In this document: piece after piece, positions 55,769-60,974 of the stretch
Layout of the letters: every line of letters starts with the position of its first letter
Numbering within the stretch: the first letter of the stretch is position 1
Source of the DNA: Candidatus Tumulicola scandinaviensis
Lineage (GTDB): Bacteria; Vulcanimicrobiota; Vulcanimicrobiia; Vulcanimicrobiales; Vulcanimicrobiaceae
NCBI GenBank assembly: GCA_003140835.1
Contig: PLLA01000097.1
Coordinates: forward strand, 1 to 64,000
Length of the DNA stretch: 64,000 bases
Reading direction: 5' to 3'
The notes under the pieces: generated by a model
What the model was told of the DNA's origin: nothing
Seen by the model: only the letters and a program-made list of their open reading frames with translations
The model's database searches: none
Made by a program: the position numbers and the translations under genes

Positions 55769-56947
55769 GTGAACGTTCGTTCCATCGAGGACCTCGACGT
55801 GCGTGGCAAGCGCGTCTTGGTTCGGGAAGACCTCAACGTGCCGATGGACGGCACCGCAATCGCCGATTACACTCGCATCGATGCGGCGATTCCGACGCTG
55901 AAATGGCTGCGCGAACGGGGAGCTCGAACCGTCGTGATCTCGCACCTCGGGCGCCCTGGCGGCACGCCCGATCCCGGGCTGTCGTTGCGGCCGCTGGTCG
56001 CCGCCCTGTCCGAGCGGCTCGGAACCCCGGTGGCCTTTGCCGAGGACTGCATCGGCGAGTCCGCCCGCCGAGCGGTCGCTGCACTGAAAGACGGCGACCT
56101 CGCCTTGCTCGAGAACGTTCGGTTTCACCCGGAAGAGGAACGCAACGATCCGGCGTTCGCTAAATGCTTAGCAGAGCTGGGGGATCTCTACGTCAACGAC
56201 GCTTTCGGGACGGCTCATCGCGCGCACGCCTCGACCGAGGGTGTCGCTCACCTCTTGCCGAGCGCGGCGGGGTTGCTGATGCAAGCCGAGCTTACGGCCC
56301 TCACGCGCCTGACGGAGAATCCCGTCAAGCCGTTCGTCTGTGCCATCGGCGGCGCGAAGATCAAAGACAAGATCGGCGTCTTCAACCATCTCATGGAAAA
56401 CGTGGACGCATTCTGCGTCGGTGGCGGGATGGCGAATACGTTCTTGGCCGCGCTCGGCATTAACGTCGGCACGTCGTTACGCGACGACGACTTGGAGCCG
56501 GCGCAGTACATCCTCGACCATGCCAAACAGTGCGGCGTCGACATCCATCTACCCAGCGACGCGGTCGTCGCGTTGGCCTTGGATGCGTCCGACCCGCGGG
56601 TCGTCGAAATCGCCGGCGTCGGGCACGACATGATCCTCGACATCGGGCCCGCGACCGCGCAGGCCTACGCCGGTGCGATCGAACAGGCCAAAACGATCGT
56701 ATTCAATGGACCGATGGGCGTCTACGAAAAACCCGCCTACCGTCGCGGTACGCAGGTCGTGGGCGAAGCCATCGCCCGGGCGACCGAGCACGGCGCAATC
56801 AGCGTCGTGGGTGGCGGCGATGCGGCGGCGGCGGCGCATCTCCTAGGCTTTGCCGGCGCGATGACGCACGTTTCGACGGGCGGCGGCGCGACGCTGGAGT
56901 TTTTGGAAGGGGGAACGCTGCCGGGTGTCGCCGCACTCGAGCGGTAG
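55769..56947 (+). CDS. pgk: Phosphoglycerate kinase
   Basis: ATP-forming step from 1,3-bisphosphoglycerate, 392 residues, cytosolic. RGKRVLVREDLNVPMDG, VVISHLGRPGGTPDPGLSLR, LLENVRFHPEEERNDPAFAK, CAIGGAKIKDKIGV and FNGPMGVYEKPAY cover both domains. It starts at GTG 55769, 7 bases after gap, with a poor ribosome site (TTTTTT precedes the start), so translation probably relies on coupling. Confidence 0.98.
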   Translation: MNVRSIEDLDVRGKRVLVREDLNVPMDGTAIADYTRIDAAIPTLKWLRERGARTVVISHLGRPGGTPDPGLSLRPLVAALSERLGTPVAFAEDCIGESARRAVAALKDGDLALLENVRFHPEEERNDPAFAKCLAELGDLYVNDAFGTAHRAHASTEGVAHLLPSAAGLLMQAELTALTRLTENPVKPFVCAIGGAKIKDKIGVFNHLMENVDAFCVGGGMANTFLAALGINVGTSLRDDDLEPAQYILDHAKQCGVDIHLPSDAVVALALDASDPRVVEIAGVGHDMILDIGPATAQAYAGAIEQAKTIVFNGPMGVYEKPAYRRGTQVVGEAIARATEHGAISVVGGGDAAAAAHLLGFAGAMTHVSTGGGATLEFLEGGTLPGVAALER

Positions 56948-56956
56948 ACGCGTACG

Positions 56957-57706
56957 GTGCCAGTGATTCGTTCGATCGTCGCCGCTAACTGGAAAATGCA
57001 TAAGACGGCCGCCGATACCGCCGCGTTCTTCGACGCCTTCCTGCCGCTGAGCGCTTCGCTGCCGCCCGAGATCGAAATCGTCGTCGCTCCGCCGTTTACT
57101 GCGATCGCCGAAGCGTCGAAACGCCTCCGTGGAACGCGCATCCTTTTGGGCGCGCAGACGATGCATTGGGATCTCGAAGGGCCGTTCACCGGCGAAGTGA
57201 GCGCGCCGATGTTGCTCGAATTCCGCGTGTCGCACGTCATCCTCGGACACTCCGAACGCCGCGCCGCCTGCGACGAAACCGATCGCACCGTCAACTTGAA
57301 GGTGCGGACCGCACTGGCGCAAGGCTTGACCCCGATCGTCGCGGTTGGCGAAAGCGGAAACGAGCGGTCGGCCGGACGAACCGACGATCGCGTCGTCGCC
57401 CAAACGCGCGCCGCCTTTGCGGGCGTTCCGGCCGCCGAACTCGCGCGGGTAACGATTGCGTACGAACCGATTTGGGCAATCGGCACCGGGCGGAACTGCG
57501 ATCCGGAAGAAGCCGACCGCGTGATGGCGACCATTCGCGGAAGCCTCGACGGGCTCGACGAAACGCCGATTCTCTACGGCGGCAGCATGAAGCCGGAGAA
57601 CGTGGCCGCATATATGGCGAAGCCTAACGTCAACGGTGGTTTGGTGGGCGGTGCGTCGCTCGATCCGACCGGCTTCGCCATGTTGATTGCGAACGCCGCG
57701 CGATGA
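56957..57706 (+). CDS. tpiA: Triose-phosphate isomerase
   Basis: Interconverts dihydroxyacetone phosphate and glyceraldehyde-3-phosphate. 249 residues: VAANWKMHKT (substrate Lys), VILGHSERR (His), VTIAYEPIWAIGTGR (catalytic Glu) and ILYGGSMKPENV (phosphate loop). The start is GTG at 56957; a second in-frame GTG lies two codons later. Gap of 9 bases from pgk, 4-base overlap with gpmI. Confidence 0.98.
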   Translation: MPVIRSIVAANWKMHKTAADTAAFFDAFLPLSASLPPEIEIVVAPPFTAIAEASKRLRGTRILLGAQTMHWDLEGPFTGEVSAPMLLEFRVSHVILGHSERRAACDETDRTVNLKVRTALAQGLTPIVAVGESGNERSAGRTDDRVVAQTRAAFAGVPAAELARVTIAYEPIWAIGTGRNCDPEEADRVMATIRGSLDGLDETPILYGGSMKPENVAAYMAKPNVNGGLVGGASLDPTGFAMLIANAAR

Positions 57707-59289
57707 CGTTCCGTCCGGTTGTGATCGCCGTTCTCGACGGCTGGGGATGCAGCGATTCGCCCTACGGAAACGCCGTTGCGGCCGCCGCGCTTCCGCACTG
57801 GCGCGCATTTTTCGACCGTTATCCCTGGACGACGCTGGCGGCCTCGGGCGAAGCGGTCGGCCTGCCCAAAGGCATCATGGGCAACAGCGAGGTCGGCCAC
57901 ACGAATCTCGGCAGCGGCCGCGTCGTCGCGCAGGGCCAGGTACTCATCGACGAAGCAATCGCTTCGGGAGCATTCGACCGCAACGACGTCGTGCAGGCCG
58001 CCATCGCGCACGTCAAGCGCAGCGGCGGAACGTTACATCTCATGGGTTTGCTGTCCGACGGACGCGTGCACAGTTCGCTCGAGCACCTCTACGCCCTGAT
58101 CGATGCGGCCCTTGCCGGCGGCGTTCCGATTGCGGTTCACTGCTTTCTCGACGGTCGCGACACGCCGCCGCGCTCGGCCGAAACGTACGTCACGCGGCTC
58201 GAAGAAAAGCTCGCGGCCATCGGACGTCAAGGCTCGATTGCAAGTGCCGGCGGACGGTACTATGCCATGGATCGCGACAAGCGCTGGGAGCGCACCGAGC
58301 GAGCCTATGCAATGCTGGCCACCGGCCGTGCCGAGCATCGCGCGCCGACCGCGCTCGACGCGGTGCGATCGGCGTACGAGCGCGGCGAAGACGACGAGTT
58401 CGTACTGCCAACGATCGTCGGCAAACCGCGTCCAATCGAGGACGGCGACGCATGCATCTTTTTCAACTTTCGGCCCGATCGCGCGCGTCAGTTGACGACC
58501 GCGTTCGACGCCGGCATCGCCGCCTATGGCCGCGACGCGTTCGTCGCCTTCGCACCGCGGCGATACGGCGACGTGCTTTTTGCGACGATGACGAAATACG
58601 AGGAAGATTTCCCGAATCCGGTGCTCTTCGGACCGCACCCGCAGTACGACACGTTTGGTGAAATTCTCGCGCGCGCCGGTCTGCGCCAGCTGCGACTGGC
58701 CGAGACGGAAAAATACGCGCACGTCACGTATTTTTTTAACGGCGGCCGCGAGGACGAGTTTGAGGGCGAAGACCGCGTGTTGATTCCGTCCGACCGTTCG
58801 GTGCCCACCTACGATCTCGCACCGGCGATGCGCGCCCGCGAGATTACCGATGCGGCCGTCGCCGCGATCGCGGCGGGAACCTACGACGCCATCGTCATGA
58901 ACTATGCGAACGCCGACATGATCGGGCACACCGGCAAATGGGAACCGACCATCCAAGGTCTCGAGGTGCTCGACGGATGCCTCGAACGTCTGGCCGCCGC
59001 CACGTTGAAGGCCGGCGGACTCTTGGTCATTACCGCCGACCACGGCAACGCCGAAGAAAAGCTCGACCGGGACGGGAACCCGCTGACGGCGCATACGACC
59101 AACCCGGTGCCGCTGCTGTTCGTCGCCGACGGACTAGGTGGGACGTTCGCCGGCGGCGGGAAGCTCGGCGACGTCGCACCAACGCTGTTGCGCATCATGA
59201 ACCTCCCGGTTCCGGAACGAATGAGCGGCGTCAATCTCTTCACGCCGAAGGGCGCAGCCGCCGACGTTCTCAGCACGCGCCCTGGATAA
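57703..59289 (+). CDS. gpmI: 2,3-bisphosphoglycerate-independent phosphoglycerate mutase
   Basis: Mn-dependent interconversion of 3- and 2-phosphoglycerate, 528 residues. VIAVLDGWGCSDSPYGNAV, GIMGNSEVGHTNLGSG (phospho-Ser), VHCFLDGRDTPP, IASAGGRYYAMDRDKRW, ADMIGHTGKW and TADHGNAEEKLD (metal ligands), HTTNPVPLLFV. ATG overlaps the tpiA stop. Unrelated to the histidine phosphatase at 18583. Confidence 0.98.
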   Translation: MTFRPVVIAVLDGWGCSDSPYGNAVAAAALPHWRAFFDRYPWTTLAASGEAVGLPKGIMGNSEVGHTNLGSGRVVAQGQVLIDEAIASGAFDRNDVVQAAIAHVKRSGGTLHLMGLLSDGRVHSSLEHLYALIDAALAGGVPIAVHCFLDGRDTPPRSAETYVTRLEEKLAAIGRQGSIASAGGRYYAMDRDKRWERTERAYAMLATGRAEHRAPTALDAVRSAYERGEDDEFVLPTIVGKPRPIEDGDACIFFNFRPDRARQLTTAFDAGIAAYGRDAFVAFAPRRYGDVLFATMTKYEEDFPNPVLFGPHPQYDTFGEILARAGLRQLRLAETEKYAHVTYFFNGGREDEFEGEDRVLIPSDRSVPTYDLAPAMRAREITDAAVAAIAAGTYDAIVMNYANADMIGHTGKWEPTIQGLEVLDGCLERLAAATLKAGGLLVITADHGNAEEKLDRDGNPLTAHTTNPVPLLFVADGLGGTFAGGGKLGDVAPTLLRIMNLPVPERMSGVNLFTPKGAAADVLSTRPG

Positions 59290-59308
59290 GTCCAGTCGGT
59301 TATCAGGT

Positions 59309-59317
59309 TGATATGAT
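59309..59317 (+). promoter_or_regulatory. Extended -10 element upstream of the microprotein
   Basis: TGATATGAT: TG at 59309-59310, one base, then TATGAT at 59312-59317, one mismatch from TATAAT. It lies about 36 bases before the microprotein ATG and 20 bases after the gpmI stop. No -35 is obvious, which extended -10 promoters tolerate. Confidence 0.5.
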
Positions 59318-59352
59318 TCCATAATCGCAGTGGCCGAAAGGAGGTCGCTCCG

Positions 59353-59469
59353 ATGCACAAACGCTTTACCGAAAAGAACCAAGAACTGCTCGTCGCCCAA
59401 GCTATGGTGTATTTCGTCTTCCTTGGTGCGGCGACCGTGGCGGTCGCGCTGGCGGCCCACCTGCATTAG
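59353..59469 (+). CDS. 38-residue single-span membrane microprotein
   Basis: Too short for routine gene finding. The ribosome site AAAGGAGGT ends 9 bases before the ATG at 59353, close to perfect. The protein has a polar, basic N-terminus (MHKRFTEKNQELL) and a single hydrophobic helix (VAQAMVYFVFLGAATVAVAL, about residues 14-33) ending AHLH. It lies 64 bases after gpmI, with an extended -10 box ahead of it. Its last 68 bases are antisense to the 3' end of the TPR gene. Function unknown. Confidence 0.7.
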   Translation: MHKRFTEKNQELLVAQAMVYFVFLGAATVAVALAAHLH

Positions 59470-60670
59470 TGGAACTCTCGATCTCGCTGATGCTTTCCCG
59501 CGCCGAAATGGCGATCGAGGGATCGAGCGACCGTTCAGCGGAGCGGAACTCCACGACAGCTTCGGCTCGCTTGCCGTGGACCTCGTCGACCACGCCGAGC
59601 AAGTAGTGAATGCGCGGGTCGTCGGGTGCGACGGCGAGACCTTTGAGCAACACCGGTTCCGCCTCGTCGATCGTTCCTTCCTGTACCTCGTCAAAGCCCA
59701 AGTCGACGTAGGAGTCGGGCGAGTAGGGCCACACGTCGATCGCCTGCCGGTAATATCCAACCGCATCGCGACGGTCTCCGCGAGCATCGGCCAAGTATCC
59801 GAGATTCACTAACGCCTCCGGACCCTCGGGCGCCAATTCATGGGCCCGGCTGAGTTCGCGTGCGGCCGCATCGTAGTGCTTCTCGTCGAGATACAGCGAA
59901 CCCAAGTCGTTCGTGCACGCATAGCTGCCGGCGTCGAATCGCAGACAGGTGGCGAACGTTCGCTCGGCCGCGGCGTCGTCGTGTGTCTGCATTTGGGCGA
60001 CCGCCATTCCGTTGAGAAAGTCGATCGAGGCCGGATAAATCGCCAGCGCTCGCCGGAAGTAGGTCAGTGCATCGTACGGCAAGCGCAGGTCGTCGTAGGT
60101 CTCACCCAGTTCGTATTGCGCCTCGGCATCGCCCGGACGGGCGGCCGCTTGCCGCTGCATGTCGCGCTCGAACCCATCGAAATCGCCCTTGCGCTGGTGT
60201 GCCATCACCAAGTCGTCGATCGATTCCGGCAGACTCGCGCCAAACTCGTGAATCGCGGCGTCGATGTGCTGCTGGAGGACATCGAGCATGCCCAACCGGT
60301 GGTGCGCTTGCGAATCGTACGGATAACTCTCGACGATTTCTCGATAAGTCGTTTCGGCGCGCTGCAAATCGCCAGTGCGAAAATACAGATCGCCGAGGAA
60401 GCGGCGTACGACCACTTCCTGCGGATAGACGCTCAGGTAGCGCTCGAGTCCGCCTTCAGCACCGAGAACGTCGCGCGCAAGCAGGCGCCGGCGAGCGAGA
60501 GCGAGCGCCGCGTCGGGATCGGTCACTTCCGAACGGGCGGCGTCGCGAATGTTGATCGAGGTAACGTCGGCGCGCGCGGCAAGCGGTTCGAGCACCGGGC
60601 ACGCGAGCAGCAGCCCGGCCGCCGCGAGCGCGAGATGGAGCGTAATGCGTACTGAGAAAAACTGATTCAC
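59402..60670 (-). CDS. Exported TPR-repeat protein
   Basis: 422 residues. An N-terminal signal sequence (ALAAAGLLLACPVL) has a possible lipobox LLAC near residue 18. Between about 50 and 375 it contains tandem tetratricopeptide repeats, e.g. RRFLGDLYFRTGDLQRAETT, AHHRLGMLDVLQQHIDAAIH, LGETYDDLRLPYDALTYFRR, LVNLGYLADARGDRRDAVGY. A Pro/Arg-rich tail follows and overlaps the microprotein gene on the opposite strand. Probably a periplasmic scaffold. GTG at 60670 overlaps the TGA of the small frameshifted gene (GTGA). Confidence 0.82.
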   Translation of the reverse strand: MNQFFSVRITLHLALAAAGLLLACPVLEPLAARADVTSINIRDAARSEVTDPDAALALARRRLLARDVLGAEGGLERYLSVYPQEVVVRRFLGDLYFRTGDLQRAETTYREIVESYPYDSQAHHRLGMLDVLQQHIDAAIHEFGASLPESIDDLVMAHQRKGDFDGFERDMQRQAAARPGDAEAQYELGETYDDLRLPYDALTYFRRALAIYPASIDFLNGMAVAQMQTHDDAAAERTFATCLRFDAGSYACTNDLGSLYLDEKHYDAAARELSRAHELAPEGPEALVNLGYLADARGDRRDAVGYYRQAIDVWPYSPDSYVDLGFDEVQEGTIDEAEPVLLKGLAVAPDDPRIHYLLGVVDEVHGKRAEAVVEFRSAERSLDPSIAISARESISEIESSTNAGGPPARPPRSPHQGRRNTP

Positions 60671-60974
60671 ACGTCTGCCCGGTAACTGCCGCTCGGATCG
60701 ATCCGGACCCGGCGATCCCCAACAACGATACAACGCGGGCGATGGTCCCAGAGTGACGCCACCGCAACCACCACCGGCTTGAGCTTTTCGAGGAGAACGC
60801 GGGCGCGGTGCGATACGGCGATGGCATCGCGTACCCAGCGAGGTCGTGGGGAAGGCCGGTGGTTTCGAGATCGGTCTCCGCAACCGCCGGCACGACGGCC
60901 TCTGACGGCCGCGCCGAGCTTGACGGAATACCGAGGGCGGCCGCGCCTTCTTCCGGTTCAATCCGGCGAAGCAT
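60667..60974 (-). pseudogene. Small gene after fliA, disrupted by one missing base (or assembly error)
   Basis: Frame one starts at ATG 60974 (MLRRIEPEEGAAALGIPSSS) and reads to about 60850. Frame two continues with VSHRARVLLEKLKPVVVAVA, has RRVRIDPSGSYRADV and stops at TGA 60667, which overlaps the TPR start. Adding one C to the CCCC run where frame one reads GLP would make one uninterrupted protein of about 102 residues. No family is recognised. It overlaps the fliA stop by 17 bases, in keeping with the tight spacing around it. Confidence 0.55.

Follow-up and report, generated by a model that had tools for sequence, protein, structure and literature searches.

In the window, that is, the whole 64,000-nucleotide stretch of Candidatus Tumulicola scandinaviensis DNA analyzed here, an open reading frame of 38 codons lies downstream of the glycolytic genes pgk, tpiA and gpmI. 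It starts with ATG at 59353, ends with TAG at 59467–59469 and translates as MHKRFTEKNQELLVAQAMVYFVFLGAATVAVALAAHLH. The features of the locus are as follows.

55769–56947: pgk, before tpiA (PGK domain)
56957–57706: tpiA, before gpmI (TIM domain)
57703–59289, plus strand: gpmI, cofactor-independent phosphoglycerate mutase, the upstream neighbor (iPGM_N and Metalloenzyme domains)
59267–59323, plus strand: conserved promoter region with 11-bp-phased direct repeats and a -10 region (alignment, matrix, self-similarity)
59267–59273, 59278–59284, 59289–59295 and 59300–59306, plus strand: promoter repeats TTCTCAG, CGCCCTG (weak), AGTCCAG and TTATCAG, respectively
59309–59325, plus strand: -10 region with alternative candidates, namely TGATATGAT at 59309–59317 (from the earlier, sequence-only reading), the family-aligned element at 59317–59322 and CATAAT at 59320–59325
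59337–59345, plus strand: Shine-Dalgarno sequence AAAGGAGGT, 7 nt before the ATG of the small ORF
59353–59469, plus strand: small ORF for a single-helix membrane protein of 38 aa (profile matches, dN/dS, AlphaFold2)
59402–60670, minus strand: TPR-repeat ORF of 422 aa from a GTG, with its 3' end overlapping the small ORF; not found there in relatives

A start codon so placed is uncommon in the window, where only 12 of 1385 ATGs on both strands have GGAGG 3–16 nt before them. The encoded protein has one hydrophobic stretch (residues 17–35, mean Kyte-Doolittle value of 2.22), and AlphaFold2, supplied with 26 rows, predicted one helix spanning residues 4–37 with a mean pLDDT of 86. Coordinates, AAAGGAGGT and predicted helix thus agree with the sequence-only reading, which had described a small ORF with its own ribosome site and a single hydrophobic helix. 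Across the 26 family members described below, proteins range from 33 to 45 residues (G036 is cut by a contig end), every one displays a single 19-residue hydrophobic peak, and the charge on either side of the helix is variable and close to zero. With fewer than about 50 residues and one hydrophobic helix, the protein fits the descriptive, non-homologous class of small bitopic membrane proteins.

Relatives were collected in three rounds. The single protein had matches in 12 of 60 genomes at E ≤ 1, seven of them at E ≤ 0.01 (the window genome, G010, G007, G001, G030, G036 and G033). G003 (E 0.25) was added to the seed set on account of its identical layout and Shine-Dalgarno sequence, and the other four matches were dropped as chance. 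The resulting eight-member profile matched 69 of the 117 genomes of the class at E ≤ 1, 26 of these at E ≤ 1.1e-9; the next best match (7.5e-4) lay inside a 1012-aa frame. A 26-member profile, run against 149 genomes from the phylum, which named relatives identify as Candidatus Eremiobacterota, returned exactly the same 26 genomes with one match each, the weakest at E 9.9e-13, and no relative at E ≤ 0.01 in the other 123, a distribution that marks the small ORF as more than chance. Carriers make up 7 of 70 genera, all within the family of the window genome. No member contains an internal stop, and none lacks a start codon (ATG in 25, GTG in G072), so the gene withstood the comparison in which the sequence-only reading had seen its possible refutation.

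A tree of gpmI with 49 rows places all 22 carriers used in the same half of the family, which comprises 35 rows, 13 of them lacking the gene; the small gene is absent from all 12 rows of the sister half and from both outer rows. Among the rows that lack it, at least G078 and G069 are near-twins of carriers, so incomplete assemblies or recent losses have to be reckoned with. Thirty genomes without a match were chosen for a search of the region behind gpmI for hidden members; two had no gpmI match, and in the other 28, some of whose contigs end early, no member appeared within about 1.5 kb. The small protein had no significant family match in Pfam, NCBIfam or PDB, and among the literature matches listed nothing concerned the gene. 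The family is apparently undescribed.

Substitutions in the small gene are mostly synonymous, and the protein is kept by selection. dN was lower than dS in all 12 computable pairs (dN 0.012–0.478 versus dS 0.12–2.69; a 13th pair was saturated), and differences summed over eight disjoint pairs numbered 43, 28 and 112 at codon positions 1, 2 and 3. The best-kept residues (window numbering) are Ala15, Leu18, Tyr20, Phe21, Gly25, Thr28, Val29, Ala30, Ala32, Ala35, His36 and Leu37. Conservation is weakly one-sided around the helix (170 of 5000 shuffles as high), and small residues showed no such one-sidedness (4640 of 5000 shuffles as high). These data bear on whether the frame might be an ORF that arose by chance over a conserved promoter or RNA and is not translated. 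It is short, and antisense frames in this GC-rich DNA yield many chance ORFs. Nonetheless, the excess of third-position changes with dN below dS, the recovery of relatives by protein profile, a Shine-Dalgarno or leaderless start in every member, and the lack of any conserved RNA fold upstream of the gene leave that explanation close to refuted. The frame at 59353–59469 is a real, conserved gene for a single-helix membrane microprotein.

The neighborhood is largely constant. On the same strand, gpmI lies within 200 nt upstream in 15 of the 26 members and 0.4–4.5 kb upstream in 8 more, which bears out the expectation that relatives would carry the ORF after gpmI. It was not seen in the examined piece in the remaining three (G003, together with G075 and G065, in which 0.5 and 3 kb of contig precede the small gene). 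Several members have a purine nucleoside phosphorylase, named by eye, between gpmI and the small gene. The locus of G033 (L018, 2152–8305) holds a larger carbon cluster of gpmI, purine phosphorylase, phosphoketolase-like and acetate kinase-like genes (by eye), and here too the small gene comes last.

Downstream, the window genome departs from its relatives. The TPR ORF lies opposite 68 of the 117 nt of the small ORF, and the sequence-only reading had drawn from this a possible antisense control. When the TPR protein was compared by tblastn with the stretch downstream of the small gene, up to 2.5 kb long, none of the 25 other members had a match at E ≤ 1e-3 (contig ends shortened the stretch to 110 nt in G036, 1438 nt in G071 and 2072 nt in G068). 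The convergent neighbor in relatives is another gene, whose recognized end overlaps the small gene by 4 nt in 4 of 17 cases and not at all in 13. Because the TPR gene was not found downstream in relatives and the convergent neighbor differs, the 68-nt overlap looks like a local accident particular to this genome. Antisense regulation in either direction between the small gene and the TPR gene was therefore rejected as a general mechanism. Most members have, downstream, this convergent gene of about 100 residues followed by a sigma factor of the flagellar type and by flgG-like genes (the latter named by eye). The convergent frames, recognized in 17 of the 25 other members, end in VDPSGCYR or similar. 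In the window the conserved gene of this type is at 60667–60774 on the minus strand with the TPR ORF between it and the small ORF; its stop overlaps the TPR start codon (GTGA), as though the operon of this gene had gained the TPR gene at its end.

A short protein with one hydrophobic helix and a convergent neighbor overlapping by 68 nt might also be a membrane-damaging type I toxin, repressed by an antisense or base-pairing RNA, which in the window genome could come from the TPR side. That toxins of this kind exist is illustrated by TimP, outlined in PMC7667032 as a small, sRNA-repressed membrane toxin of Salmonella; like it and other small membrane toxins, the protein is short, hydrophobic and easily overlooked by annotation. 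The small gene differs from the TimP type in having no conserved repressing RNA at its locus and in being a single-copy gene, one per genome in 26 of 26, that evolves slowly in a fixed neighborhood. The convergent overlap is not conserved, no conserved antisense or base-pairing RNA was found at the locus, and the window contains no match to an Rfam family. We regard a toxin as improbable.

The small gene has its own conserved, regulated-looking promoter region, the first repeat of which lies inside the end of gpmI; the sequence-only reading did not mention these repeats. MAFFT aligned the upstream regions of all 26 members without gaps over 57 columns. Family members have upstream repeats every 11 bp, of the form TTCAG/TCnCAG/TTACG/TATCAG or, in other genera, TTCTCAT, followed by an extended -10 with TGn and then A in the second and T in the sixth place. 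The self-similarity peak at lag 11 reached z 6.4 over the 26 related rows and z 3.1 with seven genus representatives (0 of 1000 shuffles as high). A matrix built without the genus of the window scored the window site at 20.5 bits versus 5.05 for the next best of 127,888 places, and ten other rows, each scored with its own genus left out, reached 9.8–31.0 bits, above all window places except the window's own site. Rows were anchored by eye on the last CAG, with G007 and G088 then shifted one base to fit the -10; such anchoring inflates scores somewhat, and the choice among about 100 offsets per row inflates matrix scores by perhaps 7 bits (an estimate), which makes G003 (11.5 bits) and G088 (9.8 bits) weak cases. 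The promoter region stays with the small gene even where gpmI is 0.9–4.5 kb away. Together with the 26-genome family, it bears out the proposal that the ORF is a true gene for a small membrane protein and has a promoter of its own. The extended -10 of that proposal fared less evenly: TGATATGAT is present at 59309–59317, but the -10 shared by the family lies slightly downstream, at 59317–59322, a position that fits poorly in the window genome, as does one of its repeats. A strict sigma-70 scan of 58500–60500 found no promoter.

Promoter geometry and translation start vary together. Shine-Dalgarno-like sequences occur in 21 of 26 members, all with an ATG at least 36 nt from the CAG of the last repeat. 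The five without one (G010, G088, G064, G074 and G066) are exactly those whose ATG lies 25–26 nt past the last CAG. The -10 position ends 18 nt past that CAG, and a transcript with its predicted start 7 nt further on would begin at the ATG of these five members, which for this reason look leaderless. Two of them, G064 and G074, have a TGA in frame a short way before the ATG, which forces this start. Were the labels unrelated, such a split would arise once in 65,780; the figure is indicative only, as the rows are related and those without a Shine-Dalgarno sequence represent two genera and perhaps three events. The split links promoter, start site and translation.

Direct repeats of 11 bp beside a -10 are a habit of OmpR/PhoB-family activators, and by analogy the spacing suggests an activator of this family. 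PHO boxes likewise consist of 11-bp direct repeats adjoining the -10. It is conceivable on these grounds that PhoB binds the phased repeats and that the protein belongs to phosphate starvation, the more so with the TCTCAT repeats of G033 and G096, which we take to resemble the PHO half-site. However, the promoter model had no match before pstS in 11 genomes, where CTTAA-type repeats stand instead. Since pst promoters here carry different repeats, the activator is probably not the phosphate regulator, and we give the phosphate-starvation reading only a slender chance. Membership in the Pho regulon was rejected, the operator not being shared with any of the 11 pst operons. The repeats upstream of pstS in these genomes (L230–L240), several spaced by about 11 bp, make up a candidate phosphate box for the family.

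Searching the 26 genomes with the promoter model (150 first-look candidates scored per genome, so that weaker sites may be missed) ranked the small gene's own site best in each, a result that is partly circular because these rows built the model. Other sites examined (10 plus 4 loci) were mostly inside coding sequence and shared no gene; they look like chance, except for two in G001. Only there were further strong sites found: a lipoprotein gene follows one (E 5.3e-4), and the other (E 0.02) lies upstream of a large membrane protein. The signal is therefore not indicated by any regulon. A degenerate promoter pattern found nothing in G000 and G001 and did not match even the known sites. The extra promoter and leader copies of G001, a genome of the same genus, lie at L158 1490–1620 (G001:C5:52983–53113) and L164 ~1500–1600 (G001:C4:26098). 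The copy at the lipoprotein gene is 75% identical over 95 nt to the small gene's own promoter and leader, and the second precedes a very short frame and then the large membrane protein. Both are perhaps relics of duplicates.

Single helices of 30–45 residues are also found in CydX, KdpF and PetL, small subunits of membrane complexes. The small protein resembles these in its single helix and similar length, and could be a constant subunit of a respiratory or transport complex, CydX-like or Pet-like, whose promoter only sets the level; its size and the kept Gly and Ala positions of its helix would suit such a role. Unlike these subunits, it is not encoded with a complex, being never beside one in the loci examined, and it has no family match, comparisons with known small subunits being at chance level (PetL, E 0.19, for 1 of 8 members). 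The gene is, moreover, absent from 123 of 149 phylum genomes. A constant subunit is thus possible, if doubtful.

From these observations we infer a function, and consider it moderately probable that the gene encodes a signal-induced small bitopic inner-membrane protein. Under control of its own promoter, the protein would be made on demand upon a signal and placed in the inner membrane as a single bitopic helix. Ala15, Leu18, Tyr20–Phe21, Gly25, Thr28, Ala30, Ala32 and Ala35–His36 (window numbering) would offer a contact surface through which the helix may bind a larger membrane protein, as regulator or small subunit. A more specific and rather unlikely version is a nearly single-target two-component circuit, in which a regulator induces a 38-residue peptide that acts back on the regulator's own kinase, with shifts between Shine-Dalgarno and leaderless starts around a fixed promoter. 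The four putative operator repeats were found, in most genomes searched, only before the small gene; we know of no such kinase-feedback peptide in the phylum. The closest known parallel in kind is MgrB, described in PMC2789325 as a small inner-membrane peptide (47 aa) of enterobacteria that binds PhoQ and whose gene is switched on by the OmpR-family regulator PhoP. Both are small membrane peptides, and the 11-bp-phased operators here suggest the same kind of switch. The likeness proposed here is one of kind rather than of sequence.

Collectively, these data give good support to a family of very small membrane proteins that has apparently gone undescribed, in a phylum of which hardly any members have been cultured, Vulcanimicrobium being the cultured genus. 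Its conserved promoter offers the family a concrete handle: once the regulator is found, function would follow. Moreover, the split between Shine-Dalgarno and apparently leaderless starts within one orthologous gene, around a fixed promoter, may offer those who study translation starts a clean example from nature.
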